The notes beneath the pieces are model-generated. The model saw only the letters and a program-made list of their open reading frames with translations. It had not been told where the DNA came from and made no database searches. A DNA stretch of 64,000 nucleotides. It comes from Pseudomonas synxantha (GTDB taxonomy: Bacteria; Pseudomonadota; Gammaproteobacteria; Pseudomonadales; Pseudomonadaceae). Positions 22,366 to 37,245 of this stretch are shown in pieces; within the stretch, counting starts at the first letter, position 1, and each line of letters begins with the position of its first letter. The DNA lies in NCBI RefSeq assembly GCF_900105675.1, contig NZ_LT629786.1, positions 2,294,001 to 2,358,000 of the forward strand, in the 5' to 3' direction. The position numbers and the translations under genes were made by a program.

Positions 22366-22621
22366 CGCAAACCTCGTCAAAGTAACCTCTAATGCCATGA
22401 ACTCTATCTGGGCTTTCCAAGTAAGGCCACCGGTCGCCATTAATAGTCGACATGCCTGTCATTGATTTCGCGAAGGAGGAGCAGACCTCAACTATCGTAG
22501 GAAAAATCAATTAGCCGGTGCAGAGTACCAGCCTTTCCCCGTAAGATTCATGCCGGTCATGCTGCTGAATCGTACGATATGGCCGCTCACGTCAAGTTTA
22601 CAGACTCTTCCAGGACACAAG

Positions 22622-23536
22622 ATGAACCGTAACGACCTGCGTCGTGTCGACCTTAACCTCTTGATCGTATTCGAAACTTTGATGCATGAGCGCAGTGTGA
22701 CCCGCGCCGCCGAGAAATTGTTCCTCGGCCAGCCGGCCATCAGCGCGGCCCTATCGCGCCTGCGTGGGCTGTTCGATGACCCGCTGTTTGTACGCACCGG
22801 GCGCAGCATGGAACCCTCGGCCCGCGCCGTAGAGATCTTCGCCCTGCTCTCCCCGGCCCTGGACTCGATCTCCACCGCCGTCAGCCGCGCTGCCGAATTC
22901 GACCCGGCCACCAGCACTGCGGTGTTTCGAATCGGCCTGTCCGACGACGTGGAATTCGCCCTGCTGCCGCAGTTGCTCAAGCGCCTGCGCGCCGAAGCCC
23001 CGGGCATCGTGCTGGTGGTGCGCCGCGTCAACTACATCCTGATGCCCGGCTTGCTCGCCTCGGGTGAAATCTCCATCGGCGTCAGCTACACCGCCGATCT
23101 GCCGGCCAACGCCAAGCGCAAGGTACTGCGCCGCAGCCTGCCGAAGCTGCTGCGTGCCGACAGCGTGCCAGGCTCATTGAGCCTGGACGACTTCTGCTCA
23201 CGCCCCCATGCCCTGGTGTCCTTCGCCGGCGACCTGAGCGGGTTTATTGATGAAGAGCTGGAGAAGCTCGGCCGCAAACGCCATGTGGTATTGGCGGTCC
23301 CGCAGTTCAACGGGTTGGGCACGCTGCTGGCGGGTACGGACATTCTGGCCACCGTGCCGGATTACGCCGCCGAGGCGCTGACGTCGGCAGGTGGCTTACG
23401 CGCCGAAGACCCGCCGCTGCCGGTGCGTTCGTTTGAGCTGCACATGGCCTGGCGTGGGTCGCAGGACAATGACCCGGGTGAGCGGTGGTTGAGGTCGCGG
23501 ATTCAGATGTTTTTTGGGGATCCTGAGAGTCTTTAG
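22622..23536 (+). CDS. LysR-family transcriptional regulator at the edge of island 1
   Basis: A 304-residue regulator with an N-terminal helix-turn-helix (DLNLLIVFETLMHERSVTRAAEKLFLGQPAISAALSRLRGLFDDPLFVR) and a substrate-binding-like domain. AGGA precedes the ATG at 22622. It is divergent from the reductase at 21343, which is its likely target. Its last ten codons (MFFGDPESL and stop) are repeated in a diverged form at 30749-30778, so the 3' end is probably the insertion point of the neighbouring island and may have been supplied by it. Confidence 0.9.
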   Translation: MNRNDLRRVDLNLLIVFETLMHERSVTRAAEKLFLGQPAISAALSRLRGLFDDPLFVRTGRSMEPSARAVEIFALLSPALDSISTAVSRAAEFDPATSTAVFRIGLSDDVEFALLPQLLKRLRAEAPGIVLVVRRVNYILMPGLLASGEISIGVSYTADLPANAKRKVLRRSLPKLLRADSVPGSLSLDDFCSRPHALVSFAGDLSGFIDEELEKLGRKRHVVLAVPQFNGLGTLLAGTDILATVPDYAAEALTSAGGLRAEDPPLPVRSFELHMAWRGSQDNDPGERWLRSRIQMFFGDPESL

Positions 23537-23620
23537 GCGTTGTCGGGCAGGCTGTTTATCTGATCAATTTTGCCTTTCGACAAACCATGGAGCTCCATTC
23601 ACTTCCGGTGGATTGCTACA

Positions 23621-23680
23621 TTGGGGGCATATTTGAGGGCATGCTTTGGATGGTTTGAAAAGGATGCCCCCAGCCTGGGG
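23621..23680. repeat. GGGGGCA...TGCCCCC island-edge motif, copy A
   Basis: Starts TTGGGGGCATATTTGAGGGC and ends GTTTGAAAAGGATGCCCCCA. The same elements recur at 30680-30702, 30890-30940 and 37194-37245, all at borders of accessory DNA. This suggests integrase or recombinase end sites. It begins 85 bases past the LysR stop codon. Confidence 0.55.
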
Positions 23681-23818
23681 CCAAGCAAGCTATTGATGAG
23701 GATGGGTGGACTAAGGGAGATATGAACCCTCGGCCCTACCCCGTATCAATGGCCGAGCCGTAGTGAGCGCACCACCCACCACGCTGGACAAATGCGTGCA
23801 AATGTAAAAAATTATGAT

Positions 23819-23829
23819 GGCATAATGCC
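23819..23829. promoter_or_regulatory. Palindrome GGCATAATGCC upstream of hxsD
   Basis: An 11-bp perfect palindrome containing a CATAAT -10-like element, 54 bases before the hxsD start. A related 15-bp palindrome overlaps the presumed parDE promoter at 29885-29899. It may be an operator, or it may be chance around an AT-rich -10. Confidence 0.35.
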
Positions 23830-23882
23830 TCGGCAACCTGCAAAATCCACACGTTTCCAACGGATTTGAAGGAGCGGTTCCG

Positions 23883-24182
23883 ATGACATGGCCAGTCACG
23901 CTGAAACTCGACAGCGCAGCCTACCCGCTCAGCGTGGTGCAACGCGCCGCTTATTCCCTAGCCGACACTGTCACGATCCAGGTCGGTATTGAAGCAAATC
24001 AGATAAGCCTCACGGCCCACCCCGCTAAATCAAGGCTAACGCTTTCCCCGGAGCAGGCTCACTCGCTGATCCTTCAGCATCTGAACGACTTCGCCCTACG
24101 CGACCATATCAACCGCGAAACAGTAGGGTTGCGCGAGGTCCTGGCCCGAGCCGCTCTCGCTGGATGTGGGATTTCCCAGTGA
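23883..24182 (+). CDS. hxsD: His-Xaa-Ser system protein HxsD
   Basis: A 99-residue accessory protein, first gene of the His-Xaa-Ser operon. The pattern KLDSAAYPLSVVQRAAYSLADTVTIQV followed by a C-terminal HLNDFALRDHINRETVGLREVLARAAL matches the HxsD family as I know it: a beta-rich start, then helices. No catalytic motif is visible, and its role is unknown. By analogy with other radical SAM peptide systems it could present the substrate (inference). A good AAGGAG lies 9 bases upstream. Its end overlaps the start of hxsB, so the genes are translationally coupled. Confidence 0.85.
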   Translation: MTWPVTLKLDSAAYPLSVVQRAAYSLADTVTIQVGIEANQISLTAHPAKSRLTLSPEQAHSLILQHLNDFALRDHINRETVGLREVLARAALAGCGISQ

Positions 24183-25666
24183 CACTGATTGCGACAGACG
24201 CCAAGCACTACCGCTTGCTGCCTTTTCGATTCATGCGCATGAACACGGGAAATGACCGTGACATCCTGCTCACCTCCGATACCGGTGAGTACATGCACGT
24301 GAACGACGCGCAATTACGAGCCCTCAGTTACTTCGACGTTCAACCAAGTACGCCTTTTTACAAGGACCTGCTGGCCCGCCACTTCATCTACGAACCAGGC
24401 TGCCACGACCCGTTCCCGGAAATGGCCGCGCAGTATCGCAGCCGCAAGGACTTTCTCTTCCAGGGCCCTGCTCTGCACTTGTTCGTGGTTACATTGCGCT
24501 GCAACCACACCTGCCAGTACTGCCAGGTGTCGCGGGCCCCTCTGGGAGGATCCGGCCACGATCTGTCGGAAGCGGATGCGCAAGCGGCGGTCGATCGCCT
24601 GTTCGAATCGAACGCTCCCGCCTTGACTGTGGAGTTTCAGGGTGGCGAGCCGCTTCTGGCCTTCGAGCGCGTCCGCCAGATTGTCGAATGGGTCGTCGAA
24701 CGAAACGTGGTCGAACAACGGGATATCCAGTTCGTCATCACCACCACGCTGCACCACCTGACGGAGGAAATACTCGACTTCGCAGAACAAAATCGCATCC
24801 AGTTTTCGACCTCGCTCGATGGGCCGGCGCCCTTGCACAATGCCAACCGCCCAACCCCGTCACGAGACTCCTACGAGCGCACTGTAAAAGGCATCCAGTG
24901 GGTCCGTGAGCGCCTTGGCCATGATGCGGTTTCCGCGCTGACCACGCTGACTTCAAGAAGCCTCGAACAACCTGAAGCGATCATCGATGAGTATGTAAGC
25001 CAGGGCTTCTCCAGCATCTCGCTTCGGCCTCTGAGCCCTTATGGGTTTGCCACCAAGAGTGCCCTTCGACTTGATTACCCTATTGAGCGATACCTGGCCT
25101 TCTACAAGAAGGCACTTGCCTATTTGCTGCATATCAACCAACAGAGCGTATACCTCTCAGAGAGTTATACGAGCCTGTTGCTGAAAAATATCCTAACACC
25201 CTTCTCCTCCGGCTATGTAGACCTGCGCTCCCCTGCTGGCGCAGGCACTGCAGCGCTGGTTTACAACTATGACGGTTACGTCTATCCCTCGGACGAAGCC
25301 CGAATGTTGCTGGAGATGGGTGAAGACGGCTTGAGGCTCGGCACCGTACAGCAACCCTTGTCTGAATTACTCGCATCGCCCGTTATGAATGCGTTGCTCG
25401 CCAGTGGTGTAGCAGAGGCGCTGCCGGGCTGTTCCGACTGCGCACTTGTCCCGTACTGTGGTGCTGACCCCGTCGAACACTATGCCCGCCAAGCTGACCC
25501 AATCGGACACCGAGTGTTCAGCAGCTTCTGCAAGAAGAACATGGGGCTGCTGAAGCATCTTTTCGGCCTGCTTTGCGATGGCGACGACAACGTGCAGAGA
25601 GTGCTGCTGTCTTGGTTGAACAGGCGCGCTTACAACGATGTTCGATTTCCGGGTTACAGGGGCTGA
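24164..25666 (+). CDS. hxsB: Radical SAM peptide maturase HxsB
   Basis: A 500-residue radical SAM enzyme expected to modify the HxsA repeat peptide. The SAM/iron-sulfur motif is CNHTCQYC (C113, C117, C120) and the SAM-contacting GGEP is at 160-163. A SPASM-like C-terminal region carries C423, C426, C432 and C456 (GCSDCALVPYCGADPVEHYARQADP), for auxiliary clusters as in other peptide-modifying members. The N-terminal YRLLPFRFMRM is typical of HxsB. The start is uncertain: the ATG at 24164 overlaps hxsD by 19 bases, but a GTG at 24179 would give a GTGA stop-start overlap like the one between hxsC and hxsA. The stop overlaps the hxsC start as TGATG. Confidence 0.93.
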   Translation: MWDFPVTLIATDAKHYRLLPFRFMRMNTGNDRDILLTSDTGEYMHVNDAQLRALSYFDVQPSTPFYKDLLARHFIYEPGCHDPFPEMAAQYRSRKDFLFQGPALHLFVVTLRCNHTCQYCQVSRAPLGGSGHDLSEADAQAAVDRLFESNAPALTVEFQGGEPLLAFERVRQIVEWVVERNVVEQRDIQFVITTTLHHLTEEILDFAEQNRIQFSTSLDGPAPLHNANRPTPSRDSYERTVKGIQWVRERLGHDAVSALTTLTSRSLEQPEAIIDEYVSQGFSSISLRPLSPYGFATKSALRLDYPIERYLAFYKKALAYLLHINQQSVYLSESYTSLLLKNILTPFSSGYVDLRSPAGAGTAALVYNYDGYVYPSDEARMLLEMGEDGLRLGTVQQPLSELLASPVMNALLASGVAEALPGCSDCALVPYCGADPVEHYARQADPIGHRVFSSFCKKNMGLLKHLFGLLCDGDDNVQRVLLSWLNRRAYNDVRFPGYRG

Positions 25667-26901
25667 TGGCGATGCTGCGCAAAGATACCCGCTTCGAAAT
25701 CCATCACCTGAATGAGCCGAAACTGCTCAAAGTCATCACTCTGGATGAATTCATCGAACAAGGCCTGGCTGTTTGTGCCGGAAGCGCTGAATTCGGTGAC
25801 TTGCTGCTTTGGCTGCCAAACGAAGAACGGCTACGGAGCCCGCATCTGCTCTCATTACCAGTGGGTGGATTCTTGATCCCGGAGCCATTGATCGGCGACT
25901 TCGACTGCGCGCGGCCATACCTGCACACCCCCAACGATGCGGATGTCGTGCAGCCCGGCGATGTCATTGCCATCACACCAGGCAGCGCGTTGGTGCGAGT
26001 GCTCTATCGACGAGGCTCAGACAGCAACCTGCTGTTCATGACCGATCGTTGCAACAGCCTCTGCCTGATGTGCTCGCAGCCGCCCAAAGATATCGATGAC
26101 CGTTGGCACATCGAGGAGAACCTACGACTGATCGACCTGATGGACTCGGGCGAGGAGAATCTGGGAATCAGCGGCGGAGAACCCACGCTTTATCGCGACG
26201 GCCTGCTCGAAATCCTGGCCAAGTGCAAAGCCGTTTTGCCACAGAAATCCATTCATGTACTCAGCAACGGGCGTCTGTTCCAAGACCCGAGCTGGATCGC
26301 TGCGCTCTCTTCCATCGGTCACCCTCAGTTGAGCTGGGGCATCCCGCTGTATGCCGACAATGCCGAAGACCATGACCATGTGGTGCAGGCTCCAGGCGCT
26401 TTTAGTGAAACCCTGCAAGGTCTTTACAATCTGGCGCGCGCCAACCAGATCATCGAGATACGCGTGGTGCTCAATCGCCTGACCACGCCACGCTTGCCCG
26501 AGCTCGCCCACTACGTGTTCAGGAACCTGCCCTTCGTGCGGCATGTTGCGCTGATGGGTATCGAGAGTACCGGCCTGGCCAGAAAGAACTACGAAGAACT
26601 GTGGATTGACCCGCTGGACTATCAAAAGTCGTTGAGCCAGGCCGTGTATTTCCTGTTCAACCGCGGAGTTCCGGTTTCGATCTACAACTTGCCCCTGTGC
26701 CTGATCCCGGCCCACCTCTCGCGTTTCGCCCGCCAGAGCATCTCCGACTGGAAGAACCTGTTCATCGATACCTGCCAGCAATGCGCTGCCGTCAAACATT
26801 GCTCTGGCTTCTTCAAATCCCACACCGACCGCTGGCAGAGCCGCGGCGTACAACTACTATCGCCCGAGGCCTTTAGCGCCTATACAAGGAGTGCACAGTG
26901 A
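25666..26901 (+). CDS. hxsC: Radical SAM peptide maturase HxsC
   Basis: The second radical SAM enzyme of the operon, 411 residues from the ATG at 25666. That ATG overlaps the hxsB stop (TGATG) and is preceded by AGGGG; the open frame extends further upstream only as an overlap with hxsB. The SAM motif is CNSLCLMC (C129, C133, C136) with SGGEPTLYRDGL at 169-180. A C-terminal cluster CQQCAAVKHC (C370, C373, C379) is shorter than a full SPASM domain. The N-terminal 120 residues form a separate beta-rich domain unlike that of HxsB. It presumably performs a different step on HxsA. Confidence 0.92.
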   Translation: MAMLRKDTRFEIHHLNEPKLLKVITLDEFIEQGLAVCAGSAEFGDLLLWLPNEERLRSPHLLSLPVGGFLIPEPLIGDFDCARPYLHTPNDADVVQPGDVIAITPGSALVRVLYRRGSDSNLLFMTDRCNSLCLMCSQPPKDIDDRWHIEENLRLIDLMDSGEENLGISGGEPTLYRDGLLEILAKCKAVLPQKSIHVLSNGRLFQDPSWIAALSSIGHPQLSWGIPLYADNAEDHDHVVQAPGAFSETLQGLYNLARANQIIEIRVVLNRLTTPRLPELAHYVFRNLPFVRHVALMGIESTGLARKNYEELWIDPLDYQKSLSQAVYFLFNRGVPVSIYNLPLCLIPAHLSRFARQSISDWKNLFIDTCQQCAAVKHCSGFFKSHTDRWQSRGVQLLSPEAFSAYTRSAQ

Positions 26902-27506
26902 AATTGCTCGACCGCTGGAAAGTCCTGATCAGTGGGATCAGCTTGCTGCCAATGGCAGGTACGACTCTGGCACAGGCGGGCCAACTGTCGCTCGCCGATG
27001 CGAACTGGCAACCCAACGACAAGCTACAGCCCCCAGTATTTGCCGATACGCTCAATGCGCCAGACACCGTCAACATCTATGCGGCACATCGCTCGCACAG
27101 TTCACACCGGTCCCACAGTTCGCACAGTTCTCACTACAGCGGCTCGGGTGGCTATAGCGCACCTCGCTACTACAGCCCACCCGCTACCAGTACCCGAAGC
27201 TACAGCGCGCCGAGTGCTTCGAGCAGCACCCCAAGCAGCAACAGCCTTTATCAGTCGTCTGGCACTACCAGCGGGACAAGTTCGAGCACTTCAAAGAGCC
27301 GCGCGACCAATGAGCAGAAAAGCAACCTGGTCACCCGTGTGCAGACCGCGCTGATGGTGCGCCAGTATTACCAAGGCACCATTGATGGGGTGATGGGCAA
27401 AGCAACACGTGGTGCGTTGATGGCCTTTCAGATGGACAGTGGGCTGACCGTGAATGGCCGGATGGATACGGCCTCGCTGAATGCGTTGGGTATCAAGATT
27501 CCATAA
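26898..27506 (+). CDS. hxsA: His-Xaa-Ser repeat protein HxsA (predicted modified substrate)
   Basis: A 202-residue predicted substrate of HxsB/HxsC. The start is a GTG at 26898 overlapping the hxsC stop (GTGA), with AAGGAG about 6 bases upstream. Residues 1-27 form a signal peptide (LLPMAGTTLAQA). Residues 64-81 are six perfect tandem His-Xaa-Ser triplets (HRS HSS HRS HSS HSS HYS). A Ser/Tyr/Thr-rich linker follows (82-137). Residues about 143-199 form a peptidoglycan-binding domain (VQTALMVRQYYQGTIDGVMGKATRGALMAFQMDSG). The layout suggests export and attachment of a modified repeat to the cell wall (inference). The family is known by name; its activity is not known to me. Confidence 0.9.
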   Translation: MKLLDRWKVLISGISLLPMAGTTLAQAGQLSLADANWQPNDKLQPPVFADTLNAPDTVNIYAAHRSHSSHRSHSSHSSHYSGSGGYSAPRYYSPPATSTRSYSAPSASSSTPSSNSLYQSSGTTSGTSSSTSKSRATNEQKSNLVTRVQTALMVRQYYQGTIDGVMGKATRGALMAFQMDSGLTVNGRMDTASLNALGIKIP

Positions 27507-27508
27507 GT

Positions 27509-27660
27509 TGTTGACGCTGATGCGATTTTTGACCCAGGCTACCGGAACTCATTGACCCACCCGAGTACTCAAGAAGTGATTACCTTGCGGGTGATTTCGG
27601 AGGCAGCGTGTGGGCCAGTCAAAATCAGCAACCTGGGTCAAAATCGCATCAGCGCCGACA
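27509..27660. mobile_element. 152-bp IS21-like terminal-repeat remnant or MITE
   Basis: Imperfect terminal inverted repeats of about 30 bp bound this segment: left TGTTGACGCTGATGCGATTT, right (read inward) TGTCGGCGCTGATGCGATTT. Both continue into TTGACCCAGG, and a further TTGACCCA occurs inside the left end. Ends beginning TGT with internal TTGACCC repeats are typical of IS21-family elements. No transposase is present, so it is a solo remnant or a miniature element. It begins 2 bases after the hxsA stop codon. I saw no clear target duplication. Confidence 0.65.
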
Positions 27661-27823
27661 ATCATGGGCTTATCTTGCACCGCAAATAGGTCGATTGGCT
27701 GGAGATGCAGCAAGTCGTCACCAGCCACCGTCGCTGCCACCGACCGACACGGATCTGACTACTCTTAGATAAGCCGATGCTCGCGCAGAAACCTCACCTC
27801 CCCGCTGAAATTTAGGAATGTGC
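27661..27823. other. Spacer between the IS remnant and the SIR2 gene
   Basis: No gene seen. It contains the TAGGA ribosome binding site for the SIR2 gene and presumably its promoter. A short minus-strand open frame (27549-27740) crosses the remnant and is not credible. Confidence 0.45.
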
Positions 27824-29599
27824 ATGACTGCTGCCATCAGTGATTCAACAGCCCAAATCGCGTTTTCAATGTTTGAAAACAAAGGCGTCTACGCAGTGCT
27901 TCTTGGCTCGGGGGTATCACGCTCGGCGGGAATACCGACCGGCTGGGAAATCACTATGGAGCTGGTGAAACGATGGGGCATAGCGTCTGGTACCGGCGAA
28001 CAGGAAGATTGGCTCGCGTGGTACGTAGGTCAAACAGGAGAGCAGCCCAATTACTCCACGTTGCTCGAACGCCTGGCGACAACCCAGACTGAGCGGCGAG
28101 CCATCATTCAAGGCTTTCTGGAACCTAGCGAAGACGAGTTAGAGGATGGCCTTAAACTGCCTACCCCCGCACATCGAGCGATCGCTGCGATGATCAAAGC
28201 GGGTTATGTGCGCGTGATCATCACGACGAACTTCGACCGACTCATGGAAAATGCACTTCGCGATGTCGGCGTTGAGCCAACTGTAGTCAGCTCAGAAGAC
28301 ACCCTCGGAGGAGCGGAGCCACTCACTCATGCGTCCTGCTACATCCTGAAGATCCATGGTGATTACAAGGATGCCAGGATCCTCAATACCGATGGGGAGC
28401 TGGGCAAGTATCCGCCAGCGTTCAATACGCTGCTTGACCGCATCATCGATGAGTTTGGGCTGATCGTCGCGGGCTGGTCAGGTGAGTGGGATCATGCGCT
28501 GAGGGCGGCTTTTTTGAGGGCGCCCTCCCGTCGCTACCCGACCTACTGGCTTTCGCGAGGAAAATTGAGCGAGCGTGGCCAAGAGCTCATCACTCAGCGG
28601 CGCGCCAACGTCGTGACGGGCCTGGATGCCGACACCTTCTTCGATGGGCTGAACCTCAAACTGGAAACCATCCAGCAATCCCGCCTGCAGAACCCAGCCG
28701 GCATCGAGCTGACTCTCGCTATGGCCAAACGCTTTATGGCCAGACCCGAACACAGGATTCAGCTCGATGATTTAGTGACAAGCCAGGCTCATCAAGCGAT
28801 CAGCCATCTGGCTCCTCTCTTCACAGAACGACCTCAGGGCAGCACGTCCAAGGACTTTATCGATCTGGTTGAGATATACGAAGCGGCCATCGAGCCACTA
28901 GCACGCCTTTGTGCAGTGTTAGGGCGATGGGGTGCAGGTGTTGAGCATCTGATCGTTTTGGATGCGATCAAGGGCCTGCACGCTGCGTCTCAAGTCGAGC
29001 AGTCAGGCTGGGCAGCTGGACTTGCATTGAAGAGTTACCCGATAGCACTTGTTACCTATGCGTATGGCATGGGACTTGTGCGGGCCAATCGCCTGAGCGA
29101 GCTAAACGAGCTGTTTAACACGACCCTTATCAATCGGCGCGAAATGCCTTTCCCTGTGGGAGTTGATCTATCACCGTTCTACGTTGAGGGAGCCAATGGC
29201 CTGCTTGAATTATGGAGGAGCTTCGAAGACCAAAGTAGAGCTCTTACCCCCTTGTGCAACCGACTCCATGACCGTCTTGCGTCTCGGTGGGCGCCTGACT
29301 TCGCAGGTCTGCAGGATCACGGGCTGCTTTACGAACGTTTTGAGTTTTTCAGTTTCCTGTTCTTCTGCGAGCAACGCGGAGTCAGTGAAGAGTCGCTCGC
29401 GGATGCCGTGAAAAACCACGATTTCAAAAGAATCGCATTGGGCCGGCTTTCCTGGCATTCAGAGACCATCAACCGCTTCGCTCACGAATATGCGACCAGC
29501 GAGTACAGGGCCCCGCTGCTGGCAGCAGGGTTCGCACTTGGGTCGCAAAGCTACCTGGAGCAAATTCTTGAAGGACTGAAGCGGCTGTCCAGGTACTGA
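27824..29599 (+). CDS. SIR2-domain protein, candidate NADase defence effector
   Basis: A 591-residue protein with an N-terminal SIR2-like fold: NAD-binding GSGVSRSAGIPTGWE (28-42), TTNFDRLME (134-142, N136), KIHGDY (176-181, candidate catalytic H178) and VAGWSGEWD (215-223). Residues about 300-591 form a helical region without a recognised domain. SIR2-like proteins of this type in bacterial islands commonly deplete NAD upon phage infection; that role here is inference. No HerA, Argonaute or TIR partner lies next to it. The start at 27824 is chosen over 27818 because AGGA lies 6 bases upstream. Confidence 0.82.
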   Translation: MTAAISDSTAQIAFSMFENKGVYAVLLGSGVSRSAGIPTGWEITMELVKRWGIASGTGEQEDWLAWYVGQTGEQPNYSTLLERLATTQTERRAIIQGFLEPSEDELEDGLKLPTPAHRAIAAMIKAGYVRVIITTNFDRLMENALRDVGVEPTVVSSEDTLGGAEPLTHASCYILKIHGDYKDARILNTDGELGKYPPAFNTLLDRIIDEFGLIVAGWSGEWDHALRAAFLRAPSRRYPTYWLSRGKLSERGQELITQRRANVVTGLDADTFFDGLNLKLETIQQSRLQNPAGIELTLAMAKRFMARPEHRIQLDDLVTSQAHQAISHLAPLFTERPQGSTSKDFIDLVEIYEAAIEPLARLCAVLGRWGAGVEHLIVLDAIKGLHAASQVEQSGWAAGLALKSYPIALVTYAYGMGLVRANRLSELNELFNTTLINRREMPFPVGVDLSPFYVEGANGLLELWRSFEDQSRALTPLCNRLHDRLASRWAPDFAGLQDHGLLYERFEFFSFLFFCEQRGVSEESLADAVKNHDFKRIALGRLSWHSETINRFAHEYATSEYRAPLLAAGFALGSQSYLEQILEGLKRLSRY

Positions 29600-29939
29600 C
29601 GCCTCACGCATTCCAATTAATGCAAATACGATTCAAATGGGGTACATGCGTTTGCTGCTGAAACTCTAAGACAAGTTTTGATTCTGGCAGCAGGCATCGA
29701 GGGAGGTGATTTATGCGTTCTTCATCAACGAAGGAGGTAGCTTGCTGACTGCCTGTAGGCTGCGTTGGGGGCTCAGTCCACAACGCCCCCCCTGCGACAG
29801 CCTTTTTTCGAATGGAGCAAAGGATGACGCCGTACGACACAGTCCTTCAGATTAAAATCCCAAACCATGTGTTCGCAAGCAAAATGGCATAATATGCCAA
29901 TGATCAGAAGAAACTGTTTACCGAAAGCTGGAGCTCATT
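29600..29939. other. Spacer between the SIR2 gene and parD
   Basis: This 340-bp spacer holds a 6-bp hairpin (GCGTTG at 29762-29767, CAACGC at 29781-29786). It also holds a tiny start-stop frame of 11 codons after GGAGG (ATG at 29713) and the parDE promoter/operator region. I see no convincing gene. Confidence 0.45.
29885..29899. promoter_or_regulatory. Palindromic operator candidate for parDE
   Basis: TGGCATAATATGCCA is a perfect 15-bp palindrome with one central base. It contains a CATAAT -10-like hexamer and lies 41 bases upstream of the parD start. Type II antitoxins usually repress their own promoter through such a site. Confidence 0.55.
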
Positions 29940-30230
29940 ATGGCAACGAGAAACGTTGTACTTACCCCTCACCAAGAACAGGTTATCCAGGATCTGGTGC
30001 AGTCCGGCCGTTATCAGAATGCCAGCGAAGTGATGCGAGAAGGTTTACGTTTATTGGAGCAGCGTGTCGCCGAAGACACCGCCAAAATTGAAGCCCTGCG
30101 TCAGGCGACCTCGATTGGCATCATGGATCTTGAACACGGGCGCTTTACTCAGGTGAACGAAGAGGATATGGAGCACTACCTCGAGGGCTTGAGCCTGGAG
30201 GCAACCCTCCCCGCGAGAGAGAAACACTGA
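29940..30230 (+). CDS. parD: ParD-family antitoxin
   Basis: A 96-residue type II antitoxin with an N-terminal ribbon-helix-helix (RNVVLTPHQEQVIQDLVQSGRYQNASEVMREGLRLLEQR) and a disordered, acidic C-terminal toxin-binding tail. GGAG lies 7 bases before the ATG. The toxin gene begins 2 bases after the stop, so the genes form an operon. It would repress its own promoter, probably through the palindrome at 29885-29899, and may stabilise island 1. Confidence 0.92.
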   Translation: MATRNVVLTPHQEQVIQDLVQSGRYQNASEVMREGLRLLEQRVAEDTAKIEALRQATSIGIMDLEHGRFTQVNEEDMEHYLEGLSLEATLPAREKH

Positions 30231-30232
30231 GC

Positions 30233-30589
30233 ATGCCGCAGTATCAGATTTCCAACGCGGCGCGCGCCGACATTGTCGACATCCTCAGGCTCTCCCAGAC
30301 GCAGTTCGGCGATCAAGCACGCCAGCGCTACCAGGCGCTGATCCTCGCGGCGCTGCAAGCGCTTGCCGACACGCCTTATCGCATTGGCAGCCACGACCGC
30401 GATGAACTTGCACCGGGCCTTCGCAGCTATCACCTCATCTATTCACGCCAGCAGGCCAAACAAACCCATGGAACGGTCAAAAGCCCACGCCATATAGTGT
30501 TCTATCGTGTGACAAACGACGACGTGATCGAGGTCGTCAGACTCCTTCATGACGCCATGGAAGTGCAGTTGCACTTGCCTAACGACTGA
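30233..30589 (+). CDS. parE: ParE/RelE-family toxin
   Basis: A 118-residue type II toxin. Features are the N-terminal YQISNAARADIVDILRLSQTQFG, central GLRSYHLIYS and C-terminal VFYRVTNDDVIEVVRLLHDAMEV typical of ParE. Family members poison gyrase; relatives in the wider superfamily cleave mRNA. It is longer than the usual 95-100 residues because of an insert (QQAKQTHGTVKSPRH) before the last strands. It lies directly behind parD. Confidence 0.9.
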   Translation: MPQYQISNAARADIVDILRLSQTQFGDQARQRYQALILAALQALADTPYRIGSHDRDELAPGLRSYHLIYSRQQAKQTHGTVKSPRHIVFYRVTNDDVIEVVRLLHDAMEVQLHLPND

Positions 30590-30679
30590 TTAGCGACCTG
30601 GCCCAACGGCTTAACTGGCCAGGAATAGCGAAGTCCGTCGGAGATCGCCATTTGCGATCACTCGCACACTCGGTATGAA

Positions 30680-30702
30680 TGGGGGGCAAAAGTGGGGGCA
30701 AA
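30680..30702. repeat. Island-edge motif, copy B
   Basis: Two closely spaced GGGGGCA units (TGGGGGGCAAAAGTGGGGGC). They resemble the opening of copy A at 23621 and may mark the right end of island 1. Confidence 0.45.
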
Positions 30703-30748
30703 CGAAAGTGTTATCGACCTGAAAACATCGTCCCAGAGCCTAGTCAAA

Positions 30749-30778
30749 ATGTTCTTCGGGGACCCCGATAGCCTGTAA
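30749..30778 (+). pseudogene. Diverged 30-base duplicate of the LysR 3' end
   Basis: Codes MFFGDPDSL and stop, against MFFGDPESL and stop at 23507-23536. 22 of 30 bases match and the differences are mostly synonymous. No similarity to the LysR gene is visible upstream of the methionine. This is the expected footprint of an element inserted at the 3' end of the gene. Confidence 0.65.
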
Positions 30779-30889
30779 TGGAGCCCCAGTGAATCCCATA
30801 AAACTGTTTTATAACAATAGGTTATTGGCAATTTAAGTTCATTGTCGCCTGTCTAAATCCAATGGATTCCACGACTCATGGGGACATAG

Positions 30890-30940
30890 TTGGGGGGCAA
30901 ATTTCGGTTCCTTGAAAAGGATGCCCCCACCGATGCCCCC
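30890..30940. repeat. Island-edge motif, copy C (left end of island 2)
   Basis: Opens TTGGGGGGCAAATTTCGGTT, continues with CCTTGAAAAGGATGCCCCCA and closes on a second TGCCCCC. It aligns over about 50 bases with copy D at 37194-37245 in the same orientation, giving island 2 direct flanking repeats. Similarity extends weakly upstream (CCACG-CTCAT in both). Confidence 0.6.
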
Positions 30941-30947
30941 GGAGGGC

Positions 30948-31065
30948 GACGAGTTCTCCGGGCGGATGCTGGGAGCCATCAACTCAATGTTGGTGGATAT
31001 GATGGCCGCCATCGCGCAAGGACGAGCAACCCCGCGAACGTCAGGCTCAGGCAGTCGTCAGGCGC
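30948..31065 (+). pseudogene. Serine recombinase (resolvase) fragment, frameshifted
   Basis: One frame reads DEFSGRMLGAINSMLVDMMAAIA. The next frame then continues RKDEQPRERQAQAV. Together they match the conserved region of resolvase/invertase family recombinases just before the DNA-binding domain (of the type GRMFAAINAMLLDMLAA...ARKDYEDRRRRQAQG). The frameshift lies at about 31015. The fragment begins immediately after edge motif C and lacks the catalytic domain. Confidence 0.6.
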
Positions 31066-31268
31066 GCAATGTGACAACAAATGGTCGATAGACGACGACG
31101 AGCTGCGTCCTTGATTGCAGCATAGATCGATAGGCAGTTATCGGCCACGAGCCCTCGTGATGACTGTTGGGCCACGCCGTGGGGGCGCGCCGATGTCGTC
31201 TACTACCTTGCAGCATTGAAGCAATCTACAATATTTAGATGCGTCATCTTACCGGCCAGCGGCCCGTC

Positions 31269-32186
31269 CTATCTGCACGTGCGCTGCAATCGGTATTCGC
31301 TCGGCGATACGCCAACAGTTTTTCTGAAAGATCGAGCAAGATTAGCTGCAGAGGTAAAGCCTGATTGCATCGCAATTTCGCTAATGCTTACATCTTTATC
31401 AATAAGCAAAGATTGCGCGCGCTTAATGCGCAGGTCTGATATATATCTGATAGGAGATGCGCCAGTCGCAACTTTGAATGACCTCGAAAAATGAAAAACA
31501 CTAAGGCAGGCTGCGTTAGCCAGATCGTCGAGCGAAATATCTCTGTCCAGGTTGTGTTGTATATACTCTAGTACACGTTTGAGCCGTGCTCGGTCTAAGC
31601 CTCTCCCCGAATTAGCATCAAAGTATGATTCAGTAAAGTTTTTACGGTCATCAATACGGTATCTCTGCAGTAGTCGTGCCGCCAGCCCGACGGCTAACGA
31701 ATCCAACATTAATCGGCTTGTCGCTTCCTGTGAGTCTCTTCTTGCAAGTTCCTCGGCCACAGCAAAACCAATTCCTTGAATGAGTGGGTCATGGAGCCCC
31801 CCTATATATTCAAAGCTAGGGTTCATTGTACTTTCTTCCCGCTGACGTAGAGTTCCAAAGAGATCTGGCGGCATATAAATGTGCAGTAAGTCCACGGGAC
31901 CAGAATTAAGGTGTAGATATCTAACGGCGACTCCCTGGGGACAGATGCTGGCAGAACCTGTATGAGAAACGAATCTCTGTTCAGTTCCCGCTGCCCTTCT
32001 GCGAAAATATGCTGTGCCGGCAATATTGACAACGACTTCTGTCACTGGCTGCAGAAAATCGGAGCATTCAAGCGTCACGTGCCGATACATTTCTGCCGTC
32101 AGTACGCTAGTCCACCCTAGATCCGCCGATGATTTCAACAGATTACTTCCGCCGTCTAGGTATTTGCTTCCAAAACCTCCACTCAT
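31269..32186 (-). CDS. AraC-family regulator of island 2
   Basis: A 305-residue regulator. The C-terminal AraC domain has two helix-turn-helix units (DISLDDLANAACLSVFHFSRSFKVATGASPIRYI and VSISEIAMQSGFTSAANLARSFRKTVGVSPSEYRL). The N-terminal 180 residues are a ligand or dimerisation domain with no recognised fold. GGGGAG lies 5 bases before the ATG. Codon use is more AT-rich than in the core genes. It is on the same strand as the amidase at 32358 and likely controls the amide-hydrolase genes of the island. Confidence 0.88.
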   Translation of the reverse strand: MSGGFGSKYLDGGSNLLKSSADLGWTSVLTAEMYRHVTLECSDFLQPVTEVVVNIAGTAYFRRRAAGTEQRFVSHTGSASICPQGVAVRYLHLNSGPVDLLHIYMPPDLFGTLRQREESTMNPSFEYIGGLHDPLIQGIGFAVAEELARRDSQEATSRLMLDSLAVGLAARLLQRYRIDDRKNFTESYFDANSGRGLDRARLKRVLEYIQHNLDRDISLDDLANAACLSVFHFSRSFKVATGASPIRYISDLRIKRAQSLLIDKDVSISEIAMQSGFTSAANLARSFRKTVGVSPSEYRLQRTCR

Positions 32187-32357
32187 GAGCTCTCCCCTGA
32201 CTACACAAAACTTCTAGCGCTAATGATGGATAAGGTTTGGGTGTGCAAATCTTATGCATCCATTAAGGATTTTGACAAAGTACCCGCTTGAATTTGACAT
32301 ACCTTATCAATCCGACTGACCACGCTGTCTCTATTTCCTATCTTTTGTCAAGCCCAG

Positions 32358-33731
32358 TTAGTAATAACTGCTAGAACGGACCAAGGGCTCCATGGCGATT
32401 GTCGCCAACAACAATTGGCTGTCATCGCCCGGCCCACCTGAGAAAAGAACAGATGTCGGAAGACCAGTCGCATCGAATCCGCTAGGAATGGCCACGCCAC
32501 ACCAATTCAAAAAGCTGCCGATCATCGTGTTTCTGAGCATAAGCGCATTCGTCGCGGCAAATGCTTCGTCATCGTTTTCAAGGAGCACTAGGAGGGGAGC
32601 GACAATGGGGACTGTTGGAAATGCGACAAATGTATTGCCATCAAATAGCGCAGCCAAGGATTCAATTAAGCATCCACGCGAGGTACGTAGTGCTGCCGCC
32701 AATTCAGTGCTGATGCTGCCCCCCTCTACTAGACGTGACTTCACTCTTCTATCCATCAGGTTGGCTGCGGTTGTAAGCAAGCGGTGGCCGTGAAGCTCAT
32801 AGGCTTCAATGGCAACGAGTGTGCCGTATCTAGCCCCTAGTGACAGCACATCGTCCAAAACTGGCAACCGCCGACGTTCTATAACGGCACCTTCATCACT
32901 TAGACGGCCGATCGCGGACTCAAAGTTACTGAGGACGGCCGGCTCCACGCCATCCCAAACCGCGTTTGTGGGAACAACCAGCCGTATGCCCCGAACGGTT
33001 CGGCGGGGTCGCTCGGCTATGGCGAGTCCACGAGCAGCAGCATCAATAATGGCTGCATCTACGACCGTTTGTGTCAAGACTCCAGCCGTATCAAGAGTGC
33101 GCGAAAGAGGGTAACAACCATTAAGAGGCCACCGCCCGCTCGAAGTCTTAAATCCAATGATGCCATTGAGCGCAGCGGGTATCCGCACTGAGCCACTTGT
33201 GTCTGTTCCGATAGCTGCGGATACAAGGCCAAGCGCTACGGCGACTCCACACCCTGATGAAGACCCCCCCGGAATGCGTGGTTCTTTCCGGTCCCAAGGA
33301 TTCCTTGGCGTGCCATAATGAGGATTGAGCCCAAGCCCTGAAAAAGCGAACTCAGTCATATTCAGCTTCCCCACCGTCACCGCGCCCGCATCTGTTAAGC
33401 GACGCACCAATTCAGCGTCAACCAGAGCCGGGCCTTGGTCAAGAATGCGAGACCCCGCGCGCGTGACCATTCCCTTCAAGTCATAAAGATCCTTCCACGC
33501 CACAGGGATGCCATCAAGGACTCCAAGGGAACGACCTTCTAAGATTCGCTTGGAAGAGGCTTCAGCCTCTCTGAAAGCCCTCTCGGGAGTAACTGAAGTG
33601 AATATTGCGGTGTCGTCGCAATTGGCGATCGCGTGAAATGTGGCATGAGCGATGTCGGTGGCCGTCGTAGCACCGCTCTTAATTAGCTCCGTCAGTCCGG
33701 ATATTAAGCCATTATCCTCCCTAAGTTTCAT
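32358..33731 (-). CDS. Amidase-signature family hydrolase
   Basis: A 457-residue amidase with the Ser-cisSer-Lys triad visible as K80 (GIPVAWKDLYDLKG), S157 (PGGSSSGCG) and S181 (GTDTSGSVRIPAALNG). It hydrolyses a carboxamide, carbamate or related bond; substrate unknown. Length matches the family. A GGGGGG tract precedes the ATG. It is divergent from the hydrolase and second amidase to the right and belongs to the same lower-GC island. Confidence 0.92.
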   Translation of the reverse strand: MKLREDNGLISGLTELIKSGATTATDIAHATFHAIANCDDTAIFTSVTPERAFREAEASSKRILEGRSLGVLDGIPVAWKDLYDLKGMVTRAGSRILDQGPALVDAELVRRLTDAGAVTVGKLNMTEFAFSGLGLNPHYGTPRNPWDRKEPRIPGGSSSGCGVAVALGLVSAAIGTDTSGSVRIPAALNGIIGFKTSSGRWPLNGCYPLSRTLDTAGVLTQTVVDAAIIDAAARGLAIAERPRRTVRGIRLVVPTNAVWDGVEPAVLSNFESAIGRLSDEGAVIERRRLPVLDDVLSLGARYGTLVAIEAYELHGHRLLTTAANLMDRRVKSRLVEGGSISTELAAALRTSRGCLIESLAALFDGNTFVAFPTVPIVAPLLVLLENDDEAFAATNALMLRNTMIGSFLNWCGVAIPSGFDATGLPTSVLFSGGPGDDSQLLLATIAMEPLVRSSSYY

Positions 33732-34097
33732 TCTGCCCCCCCGAATTCCGTGTTAAGTGATTCGCCATTAAAGACACGAGACTGTAAGCATCGTAAAGAA
33801 GGCCATTCCATTCGAGACCAGCAGTCACTGAAGGCGGCTTATCAACCTCTTGGCTGAGTGACGCCGACGTGTAGACAGTGAGGCTACGACGGGCCCATTA
33901 AGTAACGCAGATTCGCTCTTTGGAATAGCCGACAATCCGTAAGCGGCTACCATCATACTGCTCGGACTGGTAACTTTTGGCAAGAGAACGCAGAACCGCA
34001 AGATTCGCTGCATAAGTCAGCAATTTTAGTGTGGCGTGCGTTTTTTTGGCGGACTAAGATTAGTTTCCGTATCTCGAACAAATTAAGGAAACCAACG
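33732..34097. other. Divergent promoter region between amidase and hydrolase
   Basis: This 366-bp AT-rich spacer lies between divergently transcribed genes and should hold both promoters, and possibly AraC sites. No gene, clear operator or RNA structure was recognised. Confidence 0.45.
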
Positions 34098-34997
34098 ATG
34101 ACGACTTTGAAGACGATGGATATTACTCATTTGGGCGGCTCCCAAATAGGATACAGGCTAAGCGCAAACTTTGATCCAGCTCTTCCAACCCTTGTGCTTA
34201 TAAACTCCTTTACTACTTCATCGGAGCTTTTTTGCGCGCAGTTTTCAGATAGTAGCTTGAGCGGCAGCACGAACTTGCTCGCCATTGAGCCTTATGGACA
34301 TGGAGCGACTCGTACAAACAGCGAGCAGTTCACCTATTGGGATAGTGCAGCCGCTAACCTTCAAGTTCTGGAAAACCTCGAAATTCGCTCAGCGTTTGCC
34401 CTAGGCACATCGCAGGGCGGATGGATTGCGGCGCGCATGGCACTGCTCGCGCCAACCAAAATCAACGGGATTATTTTGCTTGGCACCTCGATGGATTATG
34501 AAAGCGCCGAAAGTCGAGAGATCGGCTGCTGGAACGCAGATCAATTCTGCAGTCCGTGGATATCTGAGTTAGCTGAGCAAGTCGATACTGACTGGACGTT
34601 GTCCGACCAATACTGCAATGACCTCATTGATCCAGCGTTCGGCGCAACCGTAGATGCGCAGATGCGTTCATTTTGGACGGCTCGCTTGAAAGAGAATTAC
34701 AATGGCGACGATGGTAGAGCGCGCCTGCGCATGTGCACAATAAACTTGCGCGACCGAGATAGTTTGCGTGGTCGTCTGGATTCGATAACTTGCCCAGTCT
34801 TGTGGCTGCATGGCACAAACGACGTCGTATACTCTGTCTCGCATGCTGAGAAGGAAATCAAGATGTTCTCTCGTTCGCGCAGCGCAGAACTGGCTTCTGT
34901 AGAAGGTGGACACCATTTTTTGAGCGCCACGAACCCCAACGAAGTTAATAAGCTTACTTTGGAATTTATCAATCGTTGGCAAGCGCATTTGGCGTAA
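34098..34997 (+). CDS. Alpha/beta-hydrolase
   Basis: A 299-residue alpha/beta-fold hydrolase. The nucleophile elbow is GTSQGG (S105). A candidate acid lies in LWLHGTNDVVY, and the catalytic histidine in GGHHFLS. The N-terminal LVLINSFTTSSELF provides the oxyanion-hole region. AAGGAA lies 7 bases before the chosen ATG. Similar proteins act on lactones, enol-lactones or esters. Placed between two amidases, it probably handles an ester or lactone intermediate of the same pathway (inference). Confidence 0.88.
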   Translation: MTTLKTMDITHLGGSQIGYRLSANFDPALPTLVLINSFTTSSELFCAQFSDSSLSGSTNLLAIEPYGHGATRTNSEQFTYWDSAAANLQVLENLEIRSAFALGTSQGGWIAARMALLAPTKINGIILLGTSMDYESAESREIGCWNADQFCSPWISELAEQVDTDWTLSDQYCNDLIDPAFGATVDAQMRSFWTARLKENYNGDDGRARLRMCTINLRDRDSLRGRLDSITCPVLWLHGTNDVVYSVSHAEKEIKMFSRSRSAELASVEGGHHFLSATNPNEVNKLTLEFINRWQAHLA

Positions 34998-34999
34998 TC

Positions 35000-35287
35000 A
35001 TTTGATAATAGACAGGGCAGTGTCTCAAGCGCTCTTAAAGTCATCTGTTAACGGGGCGCTTCAATTCGAGACTCAAAGGCTGCTCTGTACTTATCGACCA
35101 GGTAATCAACTTTATAGGTTTCCAGTGCTGGCTGTAGTGCCGAAGTAATTGCGTATACTGGCTCGTGCCAAAACACCAATGCAATGCAAGGCCAATATCA
35201 GAATGTATTAAGTTTTTTGCCCCTCCCAAATGGGTGAGGGTCGTGCGCTCGAAGCGTAAAGAAGCATTTGAGTACGGGAATTTGAGA
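35000..35287. other. Spacer upstream of the second amidase
   Basis: About 290 bp without a gene. The amidase reading frame is open back to 35165, but the extension has no domain match. No terminator or operator was recognised. Confidence 0.4.
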
Positions 35288-36718
35288 ATGGACATTGATT
35301 GGCCGGATCTGTGTGAGCTGGACAGCGCGACGCTATTGGCAGCTTATAAAAGTCGGCATCTGTCACCTGTTGACGTTGTGCGTGCGGCGCTTGATCGTTG
35401 CATAAAAGTTCAAGATGCGTTGAACGCCTTTACATATATTGATTTCGATGGTGCGCTGACAGCAGCCAAGGCATCTGAAAAGCGTTGGCGGAATGGGAAG
35501 CCGCTTTCGCTTATCGATGGTATCCCGACGACCCTTAAGGACATCTTCCACGTTGAGGGATGGAGCGTCCGCTATGGAAGTATGACAACGCCGGGAACGC
35601 CGAACAACCAAGATGCACCGTCCGTTTCTCGGCTGCGCGAAGCCGGGGCAGTGTTCATCGGCCAAACTGCCGCTCCGGAATACAGCTGGAAAACGGTTAC
35701 TGACAGCCCAGCGTTCGGTGTAACGCGTAATCCGTGGGATCCAACCTGTACACCAGGTGGCTCTTCGGGAGGGGCGGCTGTGGCGGCGGCCTGCGGGGCG
35801 GGTGTGTTACACCTCGGTACGGACGGTGGTGGCTCCATCCGGATACCAGCGTCCTTCACCGGAGTTTTTGGGCTAAAGCCCAGTCACGGCCGCGTTCCTG
35901 TCTACCCGCCTAGTTCGTTCGGCACAGTAGCGCACATCGGTCCAATTACGCGTACTGTCGCTGACGCTGCGGCGATGCTTCGGGTTCTATCAGGTCGAGA
36001 TTTACGTGATTGGACGCAACCGCCGATGGCGTTCCCGAACGTTTCTTTGGCGCCATTCACATGGAGAGGCAAACGAATCGGATACTGGCGTACACCCTGC
36101 ATCGGAAACGTGGATGGCCAAGTGGCCACGGCTATTGAAGCAACACTCGTAGGTTTGGAAGCGGCAGGGGCGTCGGTGACTGAGATGCGGCTCCCTTATC
36201 AGGATGAGCTCCTCGAGATGTACAACCGACACTGGTATATCGGGGCGGCAAATCTTCTGACATCAATCAGCACGCGAAACCATGCCAATCTTGACCCAGG
36301 ACTCCTCCGGGCCGCTACCGTTGGGCGCAGATACAGTGGGGTCGAGAGGCTGGAGGCAGAGGTTTGGCGGAACAGATATGGCTCGGCGATGGATAATTTA
36401 CTTTCTGATTTCGACTTTATCATGTCTCCATCCGTCCCAATCCTTCCCTTTGAGGTGGGTAGAGACGTTCCTCGGTCCAGCGATGCAAAAAGTTGGACTG
36501 AATGGTGCTCATTTAGCTTCCCCATCAATCTCAGTCAGCAGCCAGCCTGTTCTGTGCCATGTGGCTTGAGCAAAGAGGGGCTGCCAATTGGTTTGCAAAT
36601 CATTGGATCACGTGGAGCGGACTCAGACGTCCTCAGTGCAGCGCTCTGTTACGAGAGAGCATTTCCCGACCGACTTATACGACTAAAAGGCGCATGGCGG
36701 GGAATTGGTGCGGTATAA
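35288..36718 (+). CDS. Second amidase-signature family hydrolase
   Basis: A 476-residue amidase with triad residues K84 (GIPTTLKDIFHVEGW), S159 (TPGGSSGGAA) and S183 (GTDGGGSIRIPASF). It is only distantly similar to the amidase at 32358, so this is not a simple duplication. The start is placed at the ATG at 35288, where the family's N-terminal helix (LCELDSATLLAAYKSRHLSPVDVVRAALDRC) begins; its ribosome binding site is weak. It follows the alpha/beta-hydrolase on the same strand. Substrate unknown. Confidence 0.9.
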   Translation: MDIDWPDLCELDSATLLAAYKSRHLSPVDVVRAALDRCIKVQDALNAFTYIDFDGALTAAKASEKRWRNGKPLSLIDGIPTTLKDIFHVEGWSVRYGSMTTPGTPNNQDAPSVSRLREAGAVFIGQTAAPEYSWKTVTDSPAFGVTRNPWDPTCTPGGSSGGAAVAAACGAGVLHLGTDGGGSIRIPASFTGVFGLKPSHGRVPVYPPSSFGTVAHIGPITRTVADAAAMLRVLSGRDLRDWTQPPMAFPNVSLAPFTWRGKRIGYWRTPCIGNVDGQVATAIEATLVGLEAAGASVTEMRLPYQDELLEMYNRHWYIGAANLLTSISTRNHANLDPGLLRAATVGRRYSGVERLEAEVWRNRYGSAMDNLLSDFDFIMSPSVPILPFEVGRDVPRSSDAKSWTEWCSFSFPINLSQQPACSVPCGLSKEGLPIGLQIIGSRGADSDVLSAALCYERAFPDRLIRLKGAWRGIGAV

Positions 36719-36903
36719 CCTTGATCGTTATCCCCTTGTACAGGTTCGTCGAGCTGCCACCAACGTTTTACGCGTAATACAAGCCCATGGACTCAGCCTC
36801 GATAATGAAGAAATCCGAGGCCGCACCTCTGTCGTGGGTCGGCTGGTATCTAGCGCTGCATGCGAGGGGGGAGCTCGATGCAGCTAATTCTCGACATGTT
36901 GCA

Positions 36904-37032
36904 AATCATCGCGGCACCGCCCAGCGGACCAAACTGTTCGCTGACGCCTCTGATCAATCCGGCGGCGGTGCTCCACAAAAGGATTGCCACCAAACCGCAC
37001 ATAGTGGCCGCCCGCTCACTTCTTATCTGCAT
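36904..37032 (-). pseudogene. N-terminal fragment of a YddG-like aromatic amino acid exporter
   Basis: The minus strand codes TMCGLVAILLWSTAAGLIRGVSEQFGPLGGAAMI, which closely follows the first transmembrane segment of YddG/DMT-family exporters. The similarity stops abruptly after that, and the rest of the roughly 290-residue gene is absent. A truncated gene at the island edge fits insertion or deletion during island formation. Confidence 0.65.
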
Positions 37033-37193
37033 CGTGCCCTCTGCAACAAAATCGCAAGTCGACCGCACAGACTACCGAGCAAAGCTGGGAGCATAAAATG
37101 ATATTTCTGCGGTACAAACGATGCGCTGTAGCCATGTCATGAAGCTTGAGCCGCCGAAGCCTTTCATCACAATGCCCTCCACGTCTCATCTGA

Positions 37194-37245
37194 TTGGGGG
37201 GGCAATTCCGGTTCCTTAAAAAAAGCTGCCCCCACCAACGTCCCC
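37194..37245. repeat. Island-edge motif, copy D (right end of island 2)
   Basis: Opens TTGGGGGGGCAATTCCGGTT, continues CCTTAAAAAAAGCTGCCCCC and ends ACCAACGTCCCC. It is the direct-repeat partner of copy C at 30890-30940. Confidence 0.6.

Follow-up and report, generated by a model that had tools for sequence, protein, structure and literature searches.

What do two radical S-adenosylmethionine (SAM) enzymes do to a protein that carries six His-Xaa-Ser (HXS) triplets in a row? The hxsDBCA operon of Pseudomonas synxantha raises this question. It lies at positions 23883-27506 of a 64,000-nucleotide stretch of contig NZ_LT629786.1 (hereafter "the window", with positions counted from its first letter). 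Hxs genes are present in many bacteria, conjugative plasmids and phages, yet a name search of the openly licensed literature gave no reported product. This agrees with the original prediction, made by a model from the sequence alone, which called the operon a poorly described system with no proven product. The operon is not unique to the window, however, as such genes are annotated on many plasmids and in a phage record. The window's operon is an intact, plain member of the already annotated His-Xaa-Ser (Hxs) family, which is chemically unsolved. Very probably, its two radical enzymes remodel the strictly repeated His/Ser stretch of an exported, cell-wall-binding protein.

The four open reading frames (ORFs) that had been predicted at 23883-27506 are all present there. 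They and the features within them lie on the forward strand, and each product exceeds the curated NCBIfam cut-off for the Hxs family to which the original prediction had assigned it. These genes are: hxsD (23883-24182), encoding a 99-amino-acid accessory protein (TIGR03976, 73.1 bits, cut-off 50); hxsB (24164-25666), encoding a radical SAM/SPASM-type maturase of 500 amino acids if translated from the ATG at 24164 (TIGR03978, 564.2 bits, cut-off 370); hxsC (25666-26901), encoding a second radical SAM maturase of 411 amino acids (TIGR03977, 384.4 bits, cut-off 267.9); and hxsA (26898-27506), encoding the proposed substrate of 202 amino acids (TIGR03979, 255.8 bits, cut-off 121.65). All four proteins, the gene order D-B-C-A and the HXS repeats are shared with the known Hxs systems (TIGR03976-TIGR03979), and nothing essential differs in the window copy; the other known layout is A-D-B-C.

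From a search of public genome contigs for relatives, we took forward the best 80 loci, each with at most 10 kb of flanking sequence per side; close relatives are over-represented in this set. According to our own models, the layout is D-B-C-A in 56 of these loci, A-D-B-C in 14, and B-C-A without a detected hxsD in seven. In the window, hxsB and hxsC overlap by a minimal TGATG (25664-25668) and hxsC and hxsA by a minimal GTGA (26898-26901), as had been noticed before. An alternative in-frame GTG start for hxsB at 24179 would create a third minimal overlap, also GTGA, with the stop codon of hxsD. Across 72 loci (from the window and the 80 named loci, where D, B and C each occur once), the in-frame hxsB start nearest to the hxsD stop is at -4 in 39, by a method that is biased towards short gaps.

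The hxs genes are clustered and co-inherited. We searched 298 genomes from the genus, sampled evenly from a larger group, with models for HxsB, HxsC, HxsA and HxsA2. HxsB was found in 40 genomes (E ≤ 1e-60; 39 are above the cut-off), HxsA in 31, and full-length HxsA2 in 10, and the genomes with HxsA or full-length HxsA2 are exactly the 40 genomes with HxsB. (The HxsA2 count leaves out 14 partial matches that lie in the HXS block of a long HxsA, two of which reach the cut-off.) HxsC was found in 39 of the 40, the exception being genome G597. In the other 258 genomes, there was no HxsC at E ≤ 1e-60 and neither type of HxsA at the thresholds used. Because all four scores exceed their cut-offs and the genes co-occur across genomes, we conclude that the operon is more than a chance arrangement. 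In a sample of the class, 5 of 369 genomes contain HxsB at E ≤ 1e-60, counting the window's own genome. The ratio of nonsynonymous to synonymous substitution rates (dN/dS) was 0.04-0.22 in 26 of 32 gene comparisons (the four hxs genes against eight relatives; no ratio was obtained for the other six, and dS is saturated in several), which indicates that purifying selection acts on all four hxs genes. We also note that the two Hxs layouts occur together in genome G448, separated by about 50 kb (C1:787577-790728 and 839063-842265), and that genome G481 has a second HxsA-like match about 10 kb from its operon (C46:179809-180204, model positions 58-190).

HxsA is built in the order of an apparent signal peptide (judged by eye), the HXS block, a linker rich in Ser, Pro and Thr, and a peptidoglycan-binding domain (PG_binding_1, PF01471; 27324-27488, residues 143-197; 46.6 bits against a cut-off of 23). 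The six perfect triplets of the original prediction (HRS HSS HRS HSS HSS HYS) are contiguous at 27087-27140 (residues 64-81), and relatives keep them as uninterrupted runs. Among 80 distinct segments, drawn from the window, the 80 loci and 13 further loci, the longest contiguous run is five triplets in 12, six in 50, seven in 16, and eight in 2. The block itself is under purifying selection: the third residue is always Ser in all 495 triplets from 81 distinct nucleotide blocks, and it is encoded by both codon families (403 TCN and 92 AGY). The middle residue of these triplets varies (Ser in 239, Arg in 149, Tyr in 73, Ala in 25, and a few others); these counts use codons of the block only, which avoids ORFs with over-long N-termini. 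Two residues ahead of the block, Ala is found in 51 of 54 distinct segments from one layout and in 19 of 23 from the other. HxsA has no Cys in any of its 202 residues, and 72 of 77 HXS proteins have none from 25 residues ahead of the block to their end.

Beyond the block, the proteins vary: they continue into PG_binding_1, into PG_binding_1 plus TonB_C (locus L113), into PEGA (L133), or into a short tail, and the majority of the short HxsA2 proteins terminate at the block. The block is thus the constant part of the protein, and the anchor can be exchanged.

Both of the radical SAM motifs that the original prediction named were found. CNHTCQYC in HxsB (24500-24523, residues 113-120) keeps its three Cys in all 117 sequences compared, and CNSLCLMC in HxsC (26050-26073, residues 129-136) keeps them in all 54 aligned sequences. 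HxsC has four further invariant Cys in the same 54 sequences (C345, C370, C373 and C379; 26698-26802), which probably form an auxiliary cluster. HxsB has a single auxiliary-cluster motif (C423-x2-C426-x5-C432-x23-C456; 25430-25531), of which C423, C426 and C432 are kept in 117/117 sequences and C456 in 116/117. At the Cys positions of the other (first) SPASM auxiliary cluster, HxsB has other residues. Cys is likewise missing from these positions in the GrrM-family protein of locus L136, which NCBIfam labels as cyclophane-forming; a relative that keeps the first-cluster Cys is one we take to be QhpD-like.

HxsB matches Pfam's Radical_SAM at 53.2 bits, and its SPASM match is below the cut-off (13.5 vs. 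21.5 bits). A structural model of HxsB (predicted local distance difference test score, or pLDDT, of 88.7) aligns with the SPASM enzyme anSMEcpe over residues 100-486, and both a radical SAM core and a SPASM-type domain can be recognised. The nearest folds are anSMEcpe, 5wgg/5why, ChlB and TigE. The match to 5wgg, which we take to be CteB, is nearly full-length and begins at residue 20, where a domain starts that may be related to the RRE (recognition element) of peptide maturases, a PqqD-like winged-helix fold (24221-24448, residues 20-95; predicted to have three strands, then helices; searched as part of the whole model). We model HxsB as a maturase of peptides that uses radical SAM chemistry and has an RRE-like domain at its N-terminus. 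When a PqqD-like fold was looked for in HxsD as well, its model (pLDDT 92.2) showed the order beta-alpha-beta-beta-long helix and gave no match in PDB at E ≤ 0.001.

Three features leave few chemical possibilities: the triplets are contiguous, substrate and enzymes co-occur exactly, and HxsA lacks Cys. The best explanation, to which we give about an even chance, is that the HXS block receives crosslinks from the His ring to the Ser beta carbon and that HxsA is then exported and anchored to peptidoglycan. HxsA would be produced in the cytoplasm, where the RRE-like domain of HxsB may bind the stretch directly ahead of the HXS block as a leader, with HxsD acting as a small helper to HxsB. HxsB would then travel along the block and, by radical chemistry, form in each H-X-S a bond between a carbon of the His imidazole and the Ser beta carbon, which would give a row of three-residue rings. 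HxsC may perform a second radical SAM step on the same block. After export of HxsA, its C-terminal domain would bind peptidoglycan, and a stiff, imidazole-rich block would be displayed in the envelope.

Passages of the review PMC11002830 describe three-residue cyclophane enzymes whose bond runs from an aromatic side chain to Cbeta of the residue two positions further on: MscB links Phe C4 to Ser Cbeta, HaaB links His C2 to Ala Cbeta, and YhhB links His C2 to Arg Cbeta. A His-to-Ser bond in H-X-S would combine these three precedents, which supports the proposal. Also, the title of a paper cited in PMC12636437 calls ChlB a multiple cyclophane synthase.

How does Hxs compare to the known systems? 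The triceptide synthases (GrrM/OscB, MscB/FxsB, HaaB and YhhB) are also radical SAM enzymes of the SPASM kind with, apparently, an aromatic-X-X target, and the one GrrM compared lacks the first auxiliary cluster Cys, as HxsB does. Hxs differs from them in that HxsB is a separate family, there is a second radical SAM enzyme, the triplets are contiguous, and the substrate is a wall-binding protein of 202 amino acids. Indeed, HxsB scores below the cut-offs of the models for known three-residue cyclophane-forming enzymes (64.1 bits vs. 310 for GrrM, 45.5 vs. 370 for FxsB, and 69.1 vs. 445 for YhhB). Outside its own family, the best sequence relative of HxsB is PapB (99.1 bits), one of the PapB/CteB-type thioether maturases of ranthipeptides and sactipeptides. 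Hxs differs from these on two counts: HxsA, being free of Cys, cannot form thioethers, and HxsB lacks the first auxiliary cluster Cys. We therefore rejected a sactipeptide or ranthipeptide identity, as the core of HxsA offers no Cys thiol donor. The TvgA/TvgB poly-cyclopropylglycine system resembles Hxs in that a radical SAM enzyme acts on repeats of one motif, according to the portion of PMC9062424 that covers it. It differs in its TVGG repeat, in a modification that lies within Val, and in having one radical SAM enzyme, as described in the corresponding part of PMC11002830.

Several loci and genomes gave results that weigh against our reading. HxsD was not detected in L112, L113, L116, L117, L118 and L122, nor in L110, which is at a contig start. 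In two loci with D-B-C at a contig start, no HXS protein was found (L119 and L124, both with D near the start), and a metagenome-assembled contig with D-B only (L109) gave neither HxsC nor an HXS protein. In L068, hxsB is split into two ORFs. The HxsB of G597 is broken: the match covers only model positions 206-442 and contains an internal stop. Finally, HxsA2 matches occur in 24 genomes of the genus, but only 10 of these cover the full model. As a separate observation, the six loci without a detectable HxsD that are not at a contig start are alphaproteobacterial, as judged by record title.

To describe the neighbours of the operon, we used BLASTP (E ≤ 1e-12, half coverage) to cluster 1280 proteins from the window and the best 80 loci, leaving aside HxsD, HxsB and HxsC. 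The HxsA cluster spans 64 loci, including 36 of the 53 loci from L083 onward, and no other family occurs in more than five of those 53. In the close Pseudomonas loci, common chromosomal genes, on the lysR side, recur in up to 15 loci (lysR in 14, counting the window). At the clustering threshold used, the operon looks self-contained.

Instead of crosslinking His to Ser, the enzymes might oxidise the invariant Ser to a formylglycine-like aldehyde or change stereochemistry. We consider this unlikely but worth keeping in mind: the score of HxsB against the anaerobic sulfatase maturase model is 59.1 bits, as compared to the higher score for PapB; HxsB lacks the first-cluster Cys that anSMEcpe retains; and an oxidase would not need the invariant His two residues upstream. 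HxsA might also be the precursor of a secreted and cleaved, bacteriocin-like RiPP (ribosomally synthesized and post-translationally modified peptide) rather than a structural protein of the envelope. HxsB does resemble RiPP maturases, the nearly constant Ala at -2 could mark a cleavage site, and most short HxsA2 proteins end at the block. However, we saw no protease, exporter or immunity gene common to the 53 loci from L083 on, and the window's HxsA continues into a peptidoglycan-binding domain, as single other proteins continue into PEGA or into PG_binding plus TonB_C, so a released peptide seems improbable to us.

A role of the HXS block mainly in binding or buffering metal, with the modification tuning the imidazoles for copper or zinc, would suit six imidazoles within 18 residues and the probable envelope location, and copper-binding RiPPs with His crosslinks do exist (PMC10206099). 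We doubt that this is the main function, as no neighbour family is widely common; a chromate transporter gene lies near two of the five plasmid copies read. Metal binding is compatible with the crosslinks that we propose. Another possibility is that the operon belongs to an island for defence or addiction, as it shares an inserted segment (described below) with a SIR2 gene and a parDE pair, and the SIR2-domain protein (27818-29599, 593 amino acids, Pfam SIR2_2) scores 706.3 bits against the phage-defence candidate PDC-S65. This is very improbable, because BLASTP (E ≤ 1e-12, half coverage) finds nothing related to the window's SIR2, ParD and ParE proteins in the 80 other hxs loci, and none of 32 loci has a DNA match of at least 100 bases in 27511-30590 despite up to 96% identity in the operon (some of the 32 break off early). 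PADLOC matches HxsB and HxsC weakly to viperin models and does not match HxsD or HxsA.

The crosslink proposal has a stronger form, which we think is unlikely to hold as stated: together, HxsB and HxsC might convert all of the (HXS)5-8 block to a continuous ladder of crosslinked rings that each join His to Ser, a rigid, imidazole-bearing rod on a peptidoglycan-anchored envelope protein. If so, the ladder would be a modification that stiffens a protein and not a released natural product, and islands, conjugative plasmids and phages would have spread it as an envelope trait, for instance as a barrier to the entry of phages or plasmids. If the block is a crosslinked ladder fixed to the cell wall, the product of the modification would be a structure of the envelope and not a peptide for secretion.

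Relatives of HxsB are found on 328 of 72,556 plasmid records (E ≤ 1e-60), which are not independent samples. Of the 328, 304 are from Klebsiella and 262 are typed as conjugative, and HxsB identity is 34-51% among the matches listed. Among 50,697 records of a phage collection, HxsB has two matches at E ≤ 1e-40; one of them, Leptospira phage KF114877.1, carries a complete, annotated A-D-B-C Hxs operon (L186, 5248-8557). A conjugative Klebsiella plasmid carries hxsDBCA (L188, 14759-18123), and its annotated hxsD overlaps the end of an IS1 element. The Klebsiella and Enterobacter plasmid copies have the same HxsC and HxsA proteins along with IS66 and IS1 elements. The Klebsiella and Novosphingobium copies have the chromate transporter gene chrA nearby, and we saw nothing common to all five of the plasmid regions that we read. 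In print, the available portions of three papers touch on these genes: PMC9062424 credits the HXS motif to Haft and Basu and mentions HxsB and HxsC, with no product given there; PMC8446631 includes Hxs genes in a gene list for a Pseudomonas aeruginosa strain; and PMC10686908 describes four putative cargo genes resembling hxsDBCA in a Salmonella Typhi prophage, where its remark on function is general only.

How did the operon come to be at this site? The original prediction placed it on a mobile-looking island, and empty sites in relatives confirm this. Each of the 36 congeneric genomes searched has a match to the lysR gene at 22550-23536. The 3' end of this gene (23506-23536) is repeated in diverged form at 30748-30778 (22 of 31 bases identical, too diverged for an 8-mismatch repeat scan), and by eye, this second copy again encodes the last residues and the stop codon. 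In two of the ten relatives fetched (G010 and G016), lysR is followed directly by the homologue of the sequence from 30749 on; the other eight do not show an empty site. Because the lysR end recurs at the far side and these empty sites exist, we consider 23537-30777 to be an inserted module of 7.2 kb, which holds hxsDBCA, the SIR2 gene and parDE. The target repeat at both ends and the empty sites together mark a site-specific integrated element. No recombinase or integrase was found among the seven module genes that were compared to Pfam and NCBIfam (smaller ORFs were outside this search). In G016, hxs occurs on this contig at a distance of 208 kb. G031 and G017 have the same module ends with different cargo.

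As the original prediction noted, a SIR2 gene and a toxin-antitoxin pair lie beside hxs; by Pfam, the pair is the antitoxin ParD with the toxin ParE (29940-30589, immediately ahead of the module's right end). We view these genes, which share the insertion, as neighbours and not as partners of hxs, because none of the three has a relative in the 80 other loci. In other Pseudomonas loci, the operon lies beside lysR without the SIR2/parDE part.

Between hxsA and the SIR2 gene there is an imperfect palindrome of about 154 bp (27508-27661) with no second copy in the genome; it is possibly the remnant of a mobile element. Just past the module, 30778-37245 has a lower GC content (about 0.49-0.55) and encodes two amidase-like ORFs and one AraC-like ORF, as judged by eye from the translations. 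This stretch is perhaps a second module; at its end, 37197-37245, a G-rich motif occurs for the third time, in a weaker copy.

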